A DNA stretch of 64,000 nt, taken from the NCBI RefSeq assembly GCF_034274695.1, contig NZ_CP128362.1, forward strand, positions 3,970,501 to 4,034,500, given 5' to 3'. The notes beneath the pieces were generated by a model. It saw nothing but the letters and a program-made list of their open reading frames with translations. It was not told the DNA's origin and did no database searches. Shown in pieces: positions 55,665 to 63,517 of the stretch. Each line of letters begins with the position of its first letter. Position 1 is the stretch's first letter. Both the position numbers and the translations under genes were made by a program. The stretch comes from Chitinophaga sp. LS1 (GTDB lineage Bacteria > Bacteroidota > Bacteroidia > Chitinophagales > Chitinophagaceae).

Positions 55665-57482
55665 TCAGGCACGTGCCGGTTTCCAGTATTGGGGTAAGAG
55701 TTCTATAAACTTATCTTTGGGGTGCTCACTTATTCTGCGCAGTACATCATCGAGCCAATGGATAGGATTGATACCCTGCAACCTGCAGGTGGCCAGCAAG
55801 CTATAAATAATTGCAGCATGTTCTGCACCATTATGAGAACCGGCAAACATAAAATTGTGTCTGCCCAGGGCAATAGGGCGGATCTGCGCTTCAAGTAAAT
55901 TATTGTCAATTGATAAAAATCCCTCAGTAGTGTATACTATAATGCCTTCAAAATTAGATAATGCATAATTGATGGCCTGATAAATGGGAGTTCCCGGTAT
56001 TGTAAGCGGCAACTGTTGCTGAAGCCACTGTTTAAAAGCATTTAATATGGGTACCGCTTTTTGTTGTCTCTCCTGTTTAATTTCATCATAGTCCATATCA
56101 GCAGCTTTGCATTTTGCTTCCAGCTTATAAAGTGGTCCAAAGAAGTTATCCAGTGCATAAGCGGCCAGCTGTCTGTCATTATCCAGGGCCCGCATAAAAT
56201 ATCTTCTTATATGGGCCATACATTTTTGATGTATAACACCTGGCTGCTGACCATATTTAGTGTATACACCATAAGCATCTGTCAACAGATATCCTTTGTA
56301 TCCGCTTAAAACATCTGCAATATCTTTTTTCCCTCTTCCCCGCTGATAAAGGAAACAGGCTATTCGCTGGATAGGGGACAATATTGCCCACTGCCAGCCT
56401 ATATGAGATTTTTTACCCTTTTTTTTAGTATCATCCAATACTTTGTACGACGACTCATCTACATGAACAATTCCACTTCGGACGACTTCCAGGTATAGCA
56501 GTTCCCACAATGGTCTTAGCACTTCGCAGATCCTGTTCACATAATAAACGAGTGTGCTATATGGCAGGTTTACTCCATACTGAATAAAACGTTTCCATTG
56601 ACGCCCTACCGGGAGATGATATAAAAACTTATCTGTTATCAGCATGATCAGTATGCTGATATCTACTTTACAACGAGGGATAGGATGTGATGGCAGCGGC
56701 GCTGATACCTTCTTAGCATATAATCCATCTTCAGATGCAACGATATAAACTGGTCGTCTGGTCACTTTAATATACCACCGTAATGGAGAACAGGCCAGTT
56801 GTCGCTGCTCATCTATCCTTACTAATTTGGCGCCCAGTGGAAGAGGATCTACATCCAGAGTAGTAATTTCTTCCTCCAATCCCTTAGGCAGATCATTACG
56901 ACCACCTCTTGTCTTAGGGCTTATCTCTACTGTCTGTCTTATATGTTCTGCAATTACTTTACGGGAACTGATCTGGCATACTGCATATTCATCCGCATCT
57001 AAGCTCAGCGTACCTTGTACAATTTGCCCCTGTTCCGTAATGTCGGTTTGTAATGGCCTCCTTTCACTTCTTATACCATGGACCCATTTTTTCAGGGCTT
57101 TCAACTCATGACGGCTTCTAAGCAAACTATTTATTACTTTATGCTGTTTTGTAACTTCTTGTTGTAAAGTGATTATTTCTTTATCCTGGTTTTTAATCAG
57201 GTTATCATATTGCGTAAGCTGAGAGTCAAGTTGCAGAATGGTTTGTCTACCAACTTCCAGTTGTTCATCTTTTTGCAGTAGTAATTGTTGTTGATAACAT
57301 ATCAGCTGGTCCTGATCAAATAGGATGGCATCTTTCGTTTCACGTTCCAGTTGTAAAACCAGTAATTGTTCCTGTTGAACAAACATTTGCTCCTGCTGCA
57401 TTGATATAATACGCTGCAATGCTGCCTGTTGTTGCAGACAAGCAGTATACATGGCTTTATATGAAGTGGCAGATTTTTTCAT
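55665..57482 (-). CDS. tnpC: IS66 transposase TnpC
   Basis: A 605-residue DDE transposase. A long Gln-rich coiled coil (about 10-125) precedes the IS66 zinc-binding/linker region (about 195-250) and the DDE domain (GIVHVDESSYKVLDD, GYLLTDAYGVYTKYG, FLSIDNNLLEAQIRPIALGRHN). The C-terminal motif ending LDDVLRRISEH is typical. The frame is intact. Confidence 0.96.
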   Translation of the reverse strand: MKKSATSYKAMYTACLQQQAALQRIISMQQEQMFVQQEQLLVLQLERETKDAILFDQDQLICYQQQLLLQKDEQLEVGRQTILQLDSQLTQYDNLIKNQDKEIITLQQEVTKQHKVINSLLRSRHELKALKKWVHGIRSERRPLQTDITEQGQIVQGTLSLDADEYAVCQISSRKVIAEHIRQTVEISPKTRGGRNDLPKGLEEEITTLDVDPLPLGAKLVRIDEQRQLACSPLRWYIKVTRRPVYIVASEDGLYAKKVSAPLPSHPIPRCKVDISILIMLITDKFLYHLPVGRQWKRFIQYGVNLPYSTLVYYVNRICEVLRPLWELLYLEVVRSGIVHVDESSYKVLDDTKKKGKKSHIGWQWAILSPIQRIACFLYQRGRGKKDIADVLSGYKGYLLTDAYGVYTKYGQQPGVIHQKCMAHIRRYFMRALDNDRQLAAYALDNFFGPLYKLEAKCKAADMDYDEIKQERQQKAVPILNAFKQWLQQQLPLTIPGTPIYQAINYALSNFEGIIVYTTEGFLSIDNNLLEAQIRPIALGRHNFMFAGSHNGAEHAAIIYSLLATCRLQGINPIHWLDDVLRRISEHPKDKFIELLPQYWKPARA

Positions 57483-57555
57483 TGGAACAATTACTATAAC
57501 GAAAAAAGCAGATCATTGTTTTGATCTGCTGCTGGTAATTTTAAAATTATTTTGT

Positions 57556-57915
57556 CTAATCTGAAGGAGGCTTATTGTTATCATTATGCCGGTAAAATGT
57601 GAGCCCTTTTACCAGTGCTATCACCTCCGAAGCACTTAATTTCAATGATTCCGAAGCACTCCCTGCCTCAGGCTTTTTAAAGCGTCCTTTATCAAGTTTG
57701 CGACATAATAATGTGAATCCTGATGATTCATGCAACAATAACTTTAAATGAGTAAAATCACGATTCAAAAACACAAATACATCATTATCTGAAATAGATA
57801 GTTGCATAACATTATTTACAATTCCACATAGCCCGGCAAATGATTTTCTCATATCTGCTGCCTGTGTATACAAAAAATAACGATGACGATCTGTCAACAC
57901 AATGATAGCACTCAT
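57556..57915 (-). CDS. tnpB: IS66 accessory protein TnpB
   Basis: A 119-residue IS66 Orf2 protein: FLYTQAADMRKSFAGLCGIV and VFVFLNRDFTHLKLLLHE are family hallmarks. Its start overlaps the tnpA stop by 4 bp (ATGA). Needed with TnpA for transposition in IS66 family members. Confidence 0.94.
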   Translation of the reverse strand: MSAIIVLTDRHRYFLYTQAADMRKSFAGLCGIVNNVMQLSISDNDVFVFLNRDFTHLKLLLHESSGFTLLCRKLDKGRFKKPEAGSASESLKLSASEVIALVKGLTFYRHNDNNKPPSD

Positions 57916-58229
57916 GATATCAGGGCTTTTAAATAAGCAGCGCTTACAGGTTGATAAATCCTGATACCTCTGAATTCGGCAAATATACCACCTGTACTAA
58001 GCGGAACCTCAGCATTCGGAGCTGAGGTTATTAGTTCTATAAAGCTACTGTTGTTCACGCTCCTGCTCAAATATCGCTTGCGCCAATTGAAAAAAGTGGC
58101 CTGACTGATACCTTTATCAGCACAAAACTCCTTTAAACTTACATTGTCCCGGTCAAATTGGTCCAACATAGTGATAATTTCCTCAGAAGAGTACCTGGAA
58201 TGGGAGGCCTTTTTAGTTTTATTGTTCAT
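57912..58229 (-). CDS. tnpA: IS66 accessory protein TnpA
   Basis: A 105-residue protein with an N-terminal HTH (VSLKEFCADKGISQATFFNW) as in IS66/IS3-type OrfA. The C-terminal part (STGGIFAEFRGIRIYQPVSA) is typical of Bacteroidota IS66 Orf1. First gene of the IS66 operon, 34 bp inside the right inverted repeat. Confidence 0.9.
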   Translation of the reverse strand: MNNKTKKASHSRYSSEEIITMLDQFDRDNVSLKEFCADKGISQATFFNWRKRYLSRSVNNSSFIELITSAPNAEVPLSTGGIFAEFRGIRIYQPVSAAYLKALIS

Positions 58230-58707: not shown

Positions 58708-58717
58708 TAATATTAGG

Positions 58718-58801
58718 TGCCCAGAACTGGATTCGAACCAGCACACCCTTGCGAGCGCTGCGACCTGAACACAGTGCGTCTACCAATTTCGCCATCTGGG
58801 C
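58718..58801 (-). tRNA. tRNA-Leu (anticodon CAG)
   Basis: An 84-base gene with a 7-bp acceptor stem (GCCCAGA with TCTGGGC), D-loop AAATTGGTAGACGC, anticodon loop TTCAGGT giving CAG, a long variable arm (class II) and T-loop GGTTCGAATCC. No CCA is encoded. The mobile DNA at 49.4-58.45 kb lies downstream of its 3' end. Confidence 0.96.
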
Positions 58802-58863: not shown

Positions 58864-61710
58864 TCAGATATTTTCTGGAATCAACATCGCTACTGGGAAG
58901 TTTTTTAACGCTACATCCGCTCCTATATTGCCTTTAGCCTCAATCACATCCTCTGAAAAAATATTTTTCCAACGCTCCGGTGCACCCGTAGGTAATAAGA
59001 TCGAAGCAACTACCGGCTGTAAATCGGGGAGGGGAATAATCACAATCACCCATTCCTGCCGGTATACTCTCGCAAATGCCAACACATTTGACTCACTACT
59101 TTGTAATGGGAGATAATCACCTTCTAAAAAGAGATTGGGAAAGTACTTCCTGCAATGCAACGCTTTGTAAGTAAGAAAGAGTTTCTCTACACCCTGTTTA
59201 CGATGACTTTTCAAATAGTCAAACAATGCCGTACCAGAAAGATCTTTTAATGATTTTAAAAGTTCAATGCGTATTCCATAATCCACAGGCCGGCGGTTAT
59301 CGGGGTCTACATAGCTGTAATCCCATAACTCTGTACCCTGATAGGTATCCGGTATCCCAGGGGCTGTTAGCTTCACCAGTGTTTGGGCCAGTGAACTGGT
59401 ATATGCAAAGTTATCCAGCTTTTCTATAAAGGGTACCAGGGTGTCTAAAAAGCGCTTATTTTGCAATATCCTGGAAATGAAATCAGTCGCATTCCGCTCA
59501 TACTCCTCATCCGGCGAAGCCCAGCTTGAATTCACTTTTCCCTCTCTAAGGGCTTTGATCACATATTGCTGCAGCCTTTCAACAGAGATCCCATCTGAAT
59601 ACCCACTGATAATACTCTGATAAATAAAATACTCGTCATTCAATAACGGTGCAGGCTGATTGATTTCCCGCCATTGCCCGATCAGTTCCTTCCATTCCTC
59701 TACAAACAAAGTCAACATATTCAGCCTGATCCGCCCATCTTCTCCTCGCTTTGTATCATGCGTAGCCGTTGTATTCAATGAATGCGGCGTCTGCTGCTGA
59801 CGGAAAATCATTAATTGATGGAAGTTGACAGGCACAGCAACCGGGCTATCACCTACTTCGTTATGCGACAACAACGCATTGTACACATAAAAAGTCGTAT
59901 CCTCCACACCTTTCGCCGTCAATGGCCCCGTAAACTGCATCAATCGCATTAAAAACGGCAGCTTATTTTGCTCCCACCATTGTTCCAATAATAATATCGC
60001 CGATTCAGCAGATCTGTTCAATGAACGCATGCGCGCAAATGTAAAAGCGACCTGTTCTGAAAGGGATGCATCTCCCTGGCCTGAGTCTGAGCCATAACCT
60101 GATCCATACCCTGAAATAGCCCCCGAGCCATAACCTGATCCATAACCCGAACCGGCTCCAAAACCAGCAAAACCAGCACCCGAACCACTACCAGAACTAC
60201 CACTTGACCCAAAACTACCGCCAAAACCCAAGCCACCTCCCGAACTACCACTCGAACTTCTACCAAAACCACCACTTGATCCAAAACCCCCACCAAAGCC
60301 AAACCCACTCCCTGAACTACCACCCGAACCCGAACCTCCACCAAACCCATAACCACTACCTGGCCCCAAATACAACCTATACACCGGCAAACAAATCATA
60401 AACAACCCAATCGCCTGCTTCAATAAATCCCTGTTAACCCTCGCATCCGCCAATTTTAGCGTATAACACAATCGAACAAGATTTTCCAATTCCCCACCCA
60501 TATATCGCTCCAAAATCAGCCTCTTTTTCTCCAAAACCAACTCCTCATATTGCCCCGGCACCAGCGTCTGATAAAATTGCTGCAACGCCAACACCCCCTC
60601 CCGGTTACTCAACAAATGATTCGTAAATGAAAGAAACTCATACCCCGTCGTCCCCTGCAATGCCCATTCCCTCGGCAAACTCTCCCGTTCCTCCAATATC
60701 TTCTCCGCTATCACGTAACATTTACTCCCAAACAACTGCTGCAACCTGTCTATATACCCCCCAGGATCCTGCAATCCATCAATATGATCAATCCTCAACC
60801 CCTGCACCAGATTCTCCCTATACAAACGATGCAGAAATGTATGATACTCATTAAACACCTCAGGCGTCTCCATCCTCAACGTAATCAACTCATTCACCGT
60901 AAAGAACCGCCTGTAATTGATCGCCTGATCCGCATCCCCCCAATACGTCAGCCGATAATATTGTTTCCCTAAAATTTTACCCAATAGCCCCAGGTTATTA
61001 TTCACCTTATCCATCAATGCCTGCAACATCGAGAGATCCCGTACCTCCGCCATCAATGCCAACTTCTGATTGCTCCAGTCATCAAGTGACGTTCCCGCCG
61101 TAGCCCGCTGATACAATGATGAAAACAACTTAATCAACGGCAATGCATCGCTGTCAGCAAGCTGCTCACTAATCAGATCATACGCCGTCACCGATAACGG
61201 AAACACTTGTTCAAAATACTTCACCGTAAACCCTGCCGAAGATACCCCCAACTTTATCTCCCCATCACGAATACAATCCTCTAAAGGCTTTCCCAAAAAA
61301 GGTGTCATCAGCTTGCCCGCAAAATCAGGATGATGCCAGTCAATATCAAAATAAGCGTAGTAAGGAGAAAGCGGCCCTCGCTCCATCACATCATACAATC
61401 GCGTATTCTCTGCATGAAAAGCCATGTGATTCGGCACTATATCCTGCAGCCAGGTCATACCATGCTCCCGCAAAAGCACATGAATTTCACGTAACTCATC
61501 TATCGTTCCGATAGCCGGATTGATACAATGCGGATTCGTCACATCATACCCATGCTCACTACCCGGCGCCGCTTTGAAGATAGGCGATGCATATATTGTC
61601 GATATACCCAGCGCATGCAAATACGGTATGATCTCTTTCAATTGCTTAAATGTAAACCCCGCATGAAACTGAATACGATACGTAGCGGTTGGCGGATTAT
61701 ACGATCTCAT
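58864..61710 (-). CDS. treY: Malto-oligosyltrehalose synthase with a Gly/Ser-rich insertion
   Basis: A 948-residue GH13 enzyme, longer than usual. N-terminal signature TATYRIQFHAGFTFKQL and IYASPIFKAAPGSEHGYDV; catalytic barrel GLRIDHIDGLQDPGGYI; GTTGYEFLSF; C-terminal GIPDTYQGTELWDYSYVDPD. It rearranges the reducing-end alpha-1,4 bond of maltodextrins to alpha-1,1. Residues about 447-545 are an almost pure Gly/Ser/Phe/Tyr stretch, with family sequence resuming at SEQVAFTFARMRSLN. The start overlaps treZ by 14 bp. Confidence 0.95.
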   Translation of the reverse strand: MRSYNPPTATYRIQFHAGFTFKQLKEIIPYLHALGISTIYASPIFKAAPGSEHGYDVTNPHCINPAIGTIDELREIHVLLREHGMTWLQDIVPNHMAFHAENTRLYDVMERGPLSPYYAYFDIDWHHPDFAGKLMTPFLGKPLEDCIRDGEIKLGVSSAGFTVKYFEQVFPLSVTAYDLISEQLADSDALPLIKLFSSLYQRATAGTSLDDWSNQKLALMAEVRDLSMLQALMDKVNNNLGLLGKILGKQYYRLTYWGDADQAINYRRFFTVNELITLRMETPEVFNEYHTFLHRLYRENLVQGLRIDHIDGLQDPGGYIDRLQQLFGSKCYVIAEKILEERESLPREWALQGTTGYEFLSFTNHLLSNREGVLALQQFYQTLVPGQYEELVLEKKRLILERYMGGELENLVRLCYTLKLADARVNRDLLKQAIGLFMICLPVYRLYLGPGSGYGFGGGSGSGGSSGSGFGFGGGFGSSGGFGRSSSGSSGGGLGFGGSFGSSGSSGSGSGAGFAGFGAGSGYGSGYGSGAISGYGSGYGSDSGQGDASLSEQVAFTFARMRSLNRSAESAILLLEQWWEQNKLPFLMRLMQFTGPLTAKGVEDTTFYVYNALLSHNEVGDSPVAVPVNFHQLMIFRQQQTPHSLNTTATHDTKRGEDGRIRLNMLTLFVEEWKELIGQWREINQPAPLLNDEYFIYQSIISGYSDGISVERLQQYVIKALREGKVNSSWASPDEEYERNATDFISRILQNKRFLDTLVPFIEKLDNFAYTSSLAQTLVKLTAPGIPDTYQGTELWDYSYVDPDNRRPVDYGIRIELLKSLKDLSGTALFDYLKSHRKQGVEKLFLTYKALHCRKYFPNLFLEGDYLPLQSSESNVLAFARVYRQEWVIVIIPLPDLQPVVASILLPTGAPERWKNIFSEDVIEAKGNIGADVALKNFPVAMLIPENI
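60075..60370 (-). repeat. Gly/Ser-rich low-complexity coding insertion in treY
   Basis: About 98 codons made of GFGGG, GSSGS and GSGYGSGYGS-like units, encoded by imperfect 6- and 9-base repeats. The reading frame is kept. Periodicity suggests replication-slippage growth. It sits between the regions LFMICLPVYRLYLGPG and QGDASLSEQVAF. Confidence 0.9.
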
Positions 61711-63517
61711 AAATTATAGCTGAGTATGGTTGTAAAGTAATAGCAATACCCTCCTTAACTTCATCCGGCGCCGTAGGCCCAGGCCCCTGCCAGATAGCAA
61801 CTGAAGAATCAAACTTTTTATGTAATAAATGAGGACGATTATGCACAAACACTGCCTGCTCTTCACTGCAATTAAACAGTAACAACAAACGGTCATCATT
61901 GCCCGCGCGTTCTACTGATAATATAACATCTCCGGGTTGCGGCATGTTCACCCATATATTATCTCTTTCTGTATTCAACAATGCCCTTCTCGTCTTCCGC
62001 AACGCGATCAGATAACGATAATATTCTAATAGCGGCCCCGGCGCTGGCCACGAAAGAATGGACTGCGAGAATGTATGATCTGACTGTGGATCAGGTACAT
62101 CGCCCGCCCATGAAAATGCTTTAAATTCATTTTTACGCCCCTCACTCACCGCCCTGGAAAGATCCTCATCCCCATGACTCGTGAAATACAAAAACGGCCG
62201 CTTCTCCCCATATTCCTCCCCCATAAACAACATCGGCGTATGCGGAGATAACAGCAACATCGCTGCCGCCAGTTTATTCGCTTCCAATGGTAATTTTGCT
62301 GCCAACCGGTCTCCTGACATTCTATTACCTACCTGATCATGATTTTGTGTAAACACAATAAACCTGTCATAAGGTATCGCATGTGGCACCACACCAAACT
62401 TCCGCTTTCTGTGTGGAGAATATTGCCCCGTATACACATAACTATCTCTCCATGCTTTCGCCAGCGAAGGCAATCCGTCAAAGTCTTCATAATACCCATC
62501 CTTCTCTTTCGTCAGCACCACATGCAGCGCATGATGAAACTCATCTACCCATTGCCCATGCATGCCATATCCACATTGATCTGTTGGCGTGATATACCTT
62601 GGATTGTTGAAATCTATTTCTGCTATTAGAATTTTTTTCCTGCCTGTGGCATACGACAATGCCGTCACTGCCTCACCCAGTTCTTCTGTAAAATGCTTCG
62701 CACTGCTATCCCAGATGGCATGCACCGCATCCAGCCGCAATCCATCTATATGATACTCTTCCAGCCACATCAGCGCATTGCGGATGAAGTAAGCCCTCAC
62801 CGCATCTGAATACTGATCATCAAAGTTGATCGCTGCACCCCACGGTGTTCTGTATTTCTCCGTATACCACGGACCAAAATCTGAAAAATACGCTCCCTCC
62901 GGCCCCAGATGATTATATACTACATCAAGTATCACTGCAATCCCATATTGATGTGCAGCGTTTACCAGCGCCTTCAGTTCATTCGGTGTACCATATGTAT
63001 TATGCACTGCATAAGGATATACACCATCATACCCCCAGTTACGATGACCGGGGAACTGAGCAATGGGCATGATCTCGATGGCATTTATCCCCAATGAGCG
63101 GAGATAACTGAGCTTTGAAAGCACGCCCTTGAAATTCTGCAACGGTGTGAAGGTGCCTGTATGCAATTCGTAGATAATCATCTCGTTCAGGTCGCGTCCT
63201 TTCCACCCTTCGTCGGACCATTTGAAATTGTCCTCTACCAATGCTGACGGCCCATGTACACCTTCAGGCTGATAACGCGATGCAGGGTCAGGACGTTTCA
63301 GCTGTCCATCCAGTATATAGTTGTAAGTCATACCCGGTGAAACCGAAGGCACCACTACCTGCCAATAGCCATCGTCATCCCGCTGCATGGGGATTGTGGC
63401 GGACTCCGGTGTTATCACAGACAATGCAACAGACTCTCTGAAGGGCGCCCAAACACTAAATAACCCGGCTCCATTGTCAAGAATAGTAGATCCGGTAAAT
63501 GTATATGCTGTTCTCAA
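61697..63517 (-). CDS. treZ: Malto-oligosyltrehalose trehalohydrolase
   Basis: A 606-residue GH13 enzyme with an N-terminal CBM48-like domain (VWAPFRESVALSVI). Catalytic motifs: WGYDGVYPYAVHNTYG, DVVYNHLGPEG, GLRLDAVHAI (nucleophile Asp), LIAEIDFNNPRY (acid Glu) and FTQNHDQVGNR (stabilising Asp). It releases trehalose from the product of TreY. First gene of the treZ-treY operon and divergent from a GH13 alpha-glucosidase gene. Confidence 0.96.
   Translation of the reverse strand: MRTAYTFTGSTILDNGAGLFSVWAPFRESVALSVITPESATIPMQRDDDGYWQVVVPSVSPGMTYNYILDGQLKRPDPASRYQPEGVHGPSALVEDNFKWSDEGWKGRDLNEMIIYELHTGTFTPLQNFKGVLSKLSYLRSLGINAIEIMPIAQFPGHRNWGYDGVYPYAVHNTYGTPNELKALVNAAHQYGIAVILDVVYNHLGPEGAYFSDFGPWYTEKYRTPWGAAINFDDQYSDAVRAYFIRNALMWLEEYHIDGLRLDAVHAIWDSSAKHFTEELGEAVTALSYATGRKKILIAEIDFNNPRYITPTDQCGYGMHGQWVDEFHHALHVVLTKEKDGYYEDFDGLPSLAKAWRDSYVYTGQYSPHRKRKFGVVPHAIPYDRFIVFTQNHDQVGNRMSGDRLAAKLPLEANKLAAAMLLLSPHTPMLFMGEEYGEKRPFLYFTSHGDEDLSRAVSEGRKNEFKAFSWAGDVPDPQSDHTFSQSILSWPAPGPLLEYYRYLIALRKTRRALLNTERDNIWVNMPQPGDVILSVERAGNDDRLLLLFNCSEEQAVFVHNRPHLLHKKFDSSVAIWQGPGPTAPDEVKEGIAITLQPYSAIIYEIV

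Follow-up and report, generated by a model that had tools for sequence, protein, structure and literature searches.

A Gly/Ser-rich coding minisatellite, predicted to be disordered, inside TreY of a small Chitinophaga clade

The window analysed here, a stretch of 64,000 nucleotides from Chitinophaga sp. LS1 (contig NZ_CP128362.1, positions 3,970,501 to 4,034,500), carries treY, the gene of malto-oligosyltrehalose synthase, and within this gene a Gly/Ser-rich tract of tandem repeats that lengthens one loop between two helices of the enzyme by about 92 residues. The account we consider probable is that of a disordered loop grown by slippage, kept to its composition by selection and tolerated on a working TreY. 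A short Gly-containing inter-helix loop would have been expanded first by replication slippage and then enlarged by unequal exchange of larger units. The expansion would go back to a single event in the common ancestor of a few closely related Chitinophaga, and the copy number would still be shifting in multiples of three bases. Because the resulting loop would be disordered and would lie clear of the folded core, the enzyme would still fold and still be under selection, which would hold the loop to Gly, Ser and a few aromatics without the involvement of a specific partner.

Composition and repeat anatomy of the tract

The reading frame of treY runs through 948 codons without interruption, and its product scores 765.9 bits against TIGR02401, above the curated cut-off of 498.65. 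The match falls into two stretches, the better of which ends at residue 449. The structure model shows the TreY fold across the chain, intact around the tract, which has a predicted local distance difference test (pLDDT) score of about 25 and is predicted to be disordered and to lie outside the folded core, probably on the enzyme surface. D308, E336 and D652, which we take to be the catalytic residues of GH13 enzymes, are unchanged in 46 of 46 sequences, and the enzyme has probably retained its activity.

The 101 residues of the tract comprise 47 Gly, 27 Ser, 9 Phe, 5 Tyr, 5 Ala and 8 others, while the remaining 847 codons of TreY hold 93 Gly and Ser together (47 and 46). The commonest Gly codon in the tract is GGT (26 of 47), with GGC accounting for 6. 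The tract has the highest Gly/Ser density (25 of 30 residues, followed by 19, 18 and 17) among 1,240 open reading frames (ORFs) of at least 100 amino acids, and the same tract comes first in G046, another tract-bearing genome (27 of 30, followed by 16; 306 ORFs, 0.4 Mb). These rankings refer to genome samples, each built to contain treY, the larger one consisting of 81 stretches with 1.664 Mb of the 8.67 Mb genome (about 19%, with 12,500 bases N). A 250-residue ORF with 14-residue HEGGGPGWNGGGRG repeats, L221:18850-19599 (+), is third in Gly/Ser density among the sampled ORFs.

Tandem Repeats Finder (TRF) detects a 72-base repeat in the tract, along with 12-, 18- and 24-base arrays. Matched against itself, the tract gives its best periods at multiples of 6 bases (12, 72, 36, 48 and 18 in the window genome; 60, 12, 18 and 36 in the tract of G046), which represent a Gly-X register carrying the larger units above it. 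In the codon alignment, G053, a genome of the same species, is short of exactly 36 bases, one repeat plus spacer, at two exact 20-base direct repeats of the window tract, and the gap equals the spacing of these repeats. A GFGFGGGFGSSGG-like unit is found by eye in three copies in G046 and in the metagenomic protein P0001, and in two copies in the window genome. The tract measures 89, 101, 115 and 121 residues across the four assemblies, always in frame, and none of the four sequences contains a stop or a frameshift. With in-frame tandem units, a copy difference between close strains and a junction of this difference at direct repeats, the tract qualifies as a coding minisatellite, an in-frame variable number tandem repeat (VNTR). 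Its anatomy suggests growth by slippage and unequal exchange.

A sequence-only reading of the window had described a frame-preserving Gly/Ser insertion of about 100 residues in TreY at 60075-60370, and had proposed that it might be a flexible segment or a slippage expansion. The insertion is confirmed at codons 448-548, with coordinates that were right to within a few bases, and flexibility agrees with the predicted disorder. Slippage gains support from the tandem repeats, their periods and the 36-base conspecific difference; repeat number, which the same reading had proposed to compare between strains, changes the length of the tract in frame even within a species.

Distribution and constraint

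Matches at E <= 1e-3 are present in 58 of the 79 Chitinophaga genomes searched, and TreY (E below 1e-130) in 40 of them by hand count. Inspection of the loop in 30 loci (L001-L030) reveals the tract in three, belonging to the window genome, G053 and G046; in the other ten TreY genomes the matched halves lie 54-153 bases apart on the contig (measured by hand), too close to accommodate the tract. The loop of [Flexibacter] sp. ATCC 35208 (L032) reads identically to that of G053, and both probably represent the same strain. The tract occurs in P0001 (962 aa), one of the eleven closest database proteins, and in none of the other ten. We surveyed loop length in 230 TreY sources (120 proteins and 110 loci, some genomes being in both collections), of which 221 have a frame and 214 are measurable. 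In 209 of the 214 rows the YRxY and MQFTGP motifs stand 40-97 residues apart; in the five rows that carry the tract, two of which are apparently one strain, the separation is 131-163. The longest loops are found in the tract clade only, and the tract is indeed as unusual for TreY as it had first appeared. At the level of the family, 46 of 244 sampled genomes match at E <= 1e-60, and the match of the window genome is interrupted at the loop. Of the other 45 matches, 44 cross the loop and exceed the query stretch by at most 56 residues over the whole length (by hand), and one, that of G158, stops short of the loop. The match of G137 is interrupted at another place.

A tree of 19 selected rows, built with the tract removed and midpoint-rooted for drawing only, joins the four tract rows with a support of 100/100. 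On these sequences, the tract seems to have a single origin among close relatives. In the nearest sister, P0002 (85% identical), the loop is short and reads GAGASSDALLSEE at the tract position, and other tract-free relatives have GSGDVSLEEQ or GPGDVGSNE there. Short loops of this kind, containing Gly, are plausible seeds of the tract.

The tracts of the window genome and G046 differ by 22 synonymous and 13 replacement changes over 97 aligned codons (dN, the replacement rate, 0.087; dS, the synonymous rate, 0.358; ratio 0.24). G053 and G046 differ by 23 synonymous and 14 replacement changes over 85 codons, and the window genome and G053 by 2 and 1 over 89 codons. In 180 neutral simulated tracts, realigned in the same way under a simple mutation model without indels or copying between units, the mean replacement fraction is 0.74-0.76 and the minimum is not below 0.54, against an observed value, from small counts, of 0.37. 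The 36-codon block at the 3' end, which shows no copy change relative to G046, has accumulated 6 synonymous changes and 1 replacement (P = 0.004 under neutrality). As replacements are fewer than the neutral simulation allows, the composition of the tract is constrained, perhaps with the aid of repeat copying. The constraint is weaker than that on the enzyme body, where dN/dS is 0.10, and it can mean merely the removal of bad residues.

Competing explanations

A strictly neutral expansion, drifting toward loss, would also produce the slippage anatomy, the length variation and the predicted disorder, and agrees with a constraint weaker than that on the enzyme body. The sequence-only reading had named it as one of its options, yet the replacement fraction lies below all 180 simulated neutral cases and the four sequences are free of stops and frameshifts, so purely neutral drift is disfavoured and we regard it as very improbable. 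The same reading had allowed for an assembly artefact, and repeats are difficult to assemble. However, four assemblies, two of them single-contig (G000 and G046), carry the tract in in-frame versions that differ from one another and show ordinary synonymous divergence, and an error of assembly or sequencing is barely conceivable as its source. Insertion of a mobile or dispersed in-frame element is just as remote: Gly/Ser insertions at three TreY loops in two lineages might speak for it, but the tract protein matches only itself in the window genome (four candidates scored), and among the 79 genus genomes the tract DNA has strong matches only in the window genome, G053 and G046, the next best being 41 bases in G016 (E = 1.8e-4). 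No further strong copy of the tract was found in protein and DNA searches, where low-complexity filtering may conceal copies and about 19% of the genome was inspected directly. A protein database search with the P0001 tract returned only P0001 among 7,995 scored candidates, an uninformative result given that low-complexity words swamp the candidates.

Strand bias was considered as a cause of the tract and rejected. The third-base skew of G over C is 0.62 in treY and 0.48 in treZ (58864-63517, minus strand), with a mean of 0.04 over 884 sampled ORFs. The value of treY exceeded those of all 194 ORFs in a smaller first sample and falls between the 95th (0.48) and 99th (0.69) percentiles of the 884. 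Skew was measured in 51 of 61 rows, 10 having no readable frame, and is shared by tract-free sister treY genes (0.58-0.63 in the seven rows of the clade) and by one tract-free relative outside the clade (L025, 0.59). The skew may predispose to a tract of this kind but does not explain it.

A more serious competitor, though an unlikely one, is a functional disordered arm kept by selection, in which the aromatic Gly/Ser loop would bind glycogen or maltodextrin, tether TreY to TreZ or drive self-association of trehalose enzymes. The sequence-only reading had likewise suggested that the segment may tether or phase-separate. Gly-rich tracts with aromatics and few charges resemble keratin glycine loops or FG-type domains, and all four tract-bearing sequences retain the tract with 12-17 aromatics (13-14%), mostly flanked by Gly, and 3-4 charged residues each. 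In the window tract, 14 of 101 residues are aromatic and 12 of the 14 have Gly on both sides; aromatics set in Gly/Ser spacers are also a feature of condensate-forming low-complexity domains. The constrained composition likewise agrees with an arm. Some condensing domains also space their aromatics evenly, but in the four tracts 18-34% of shuffles are equally or more even. The higher dN/dS of the tract than of the enzyme body, the existence of close sisters without it and the variation of its length inside a species also argue against a functional arm.

Separate Gly/Ser loops in C. silvisoli TreY add to the case for function. This enzyme (P0008, L033; L242:8067-10757) has no tract at the position studied here; two of its other inter-helix loops, which correspond to the vicinity of residues 385 and 704 of the window TreY, contain short Gly/Ser-rich insertions, ASEGGSNSSSGMAS and SGYAGSGNSGSGYSGSSEMS. 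Among 307 sampled ORFs of C. silvisoli (G049), no 18-residue stretch is richer in Gly/Ser than the second insertion, with 13 of 18 against 11 for the runner-up, and no 30-residue window reaches 16. Gly/Ser loops of one gene in two lineages are suggestive, and treY of this Chitinophaga clade might be a hot spot for recurrent disordered loops of this composition, at three inter-helix positions in two lineages, selected as arms by which the enzyme stays attached to glycogen or close to TreZ, with their length set by repeat number. We give this extended proposal little credence, less than the functional arm itself.

Several points nevertheless weigh against a slippage-grown, merely tolerated loop. 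The insertions of C. silvisoli are not explained by one chance expansion, and the 3' block provides a small count, 1 replacement in 7 changes. The depletion of replacements could reflect a positive function instead of mere tolerance, and part of it could be due to repeat units copying one another, a process absent from the simulation. With these points taken into account, the slippage-grown loop remains our preferred explanation, and the tract most likely forms a flexible bristle on a TreY that is active, inert itself and with little effect on catalysis.

Gene context and relation to known systems

Table 1. Coordinates of the tract, its repeats and the surrounding features in the window
Feature	Position	Strand	Basis
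treY, malto-oligosyltrehalose synthase (GH13), 948 aa	58864..61710	-	TIGR02401
Gly/Ser/Phe/Tyr-rich repeat tract, codons 448-548, predicted disordered	60067..60369	-	composition, repeats, model
72-base tandem repeat in tract, 2.1 copies	60177..60330	-	TRF, 80% matches, score 208
Two exact 20-base direct repeats, 36 bases apart	60089..60144	-	tract offsets 225 and 261
treZ, malto-oligosyltrehalose trehalohydrolase	61697..63517	-	TIGR02402, 708.2 bits, cut-off 538.8
IS66 element (HTH_Tnp_1, TnpB and DDE transposase genes), downstream of treY	55665-58229	-	
tRNA-Leu(cag), between IS66 element and treY	58716-58801		

The start of treY overlaps the end of treZ by 14 bases, and the two genes probably share one transcript. 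In G046 (L222), an ORF for an HD-domain protein adjoins treY in place of the IS66 element. In 11 of the 46 matching family genomes (L289 of G082 and ten more), TreY lies inside an open frame of 1,332-1,421 aa, which suggests fusion to another domain. P0069 has QPGNEA-type repeats in a second TreY loop, just ahead of the MQFTGP motif, with one related unit in P0088; this repeat differs from the window tract and occupies another TreY loop close by.

The window TreY shares its fold, motifs, invariant catalytic residues and adjacent treZ with known TreY enzymes (TIGR02401; solved structures 6lcu/6lcv, 5zcr, 1iv8 and 3hje), and differs from them by its additional residues, which are predicted to be disordered, sit in a single inter-helix loop and are seen in a single small clade. 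Both coding minisatellites and low-complexity regions are already known as such. A study of prokaryotic low-complexity regions (PMC6821194) places Gly among the most enriched residues, names slippage as a source and gives flexible linkers as the classic reading, in all of which the tract is alike; it reports that Gly is most often encoded by GGC and lists Phe and Trp as rare, whereas the tract has GGT leading and 14% aromatics, and splits a metabolic enzyme within its catalytic region. Insertions reported in Plasmodium enzymes (for example PMC11260460) are also low-complexity additions to conserved enzyme coding sequence; the TreY tract is bacterial, rich in Gly and Ser, and known from a single one of the sampled genes. 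Periscope proteins (PMC8201768) are likewise reported to have repeat number altering the length of a bacterial protein, but their repeats are folded domains in surface proteins, whereas the TreY tract is predicted to be a disordered loop and belongs to a glucan-metabolizing enzyme. Searches of an open-access library found no literature on low complexity in TreY or on Gly-rich tandem repeats in Chitinophaga, and among the papers listed none, judged by title and opening of the abstract, deals with the TreY insertion.

The tract presents a clean natural case of a bacterial metabolic enzyme that tolerates a large, still-changing and predicted disordered insertion inside its catalytic region. Tract-bearing and tract-free sisters both exist, which makes their comparison possible. 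If the loops are functional, repeat number would act as a tuning knob for trehalose synthesis.
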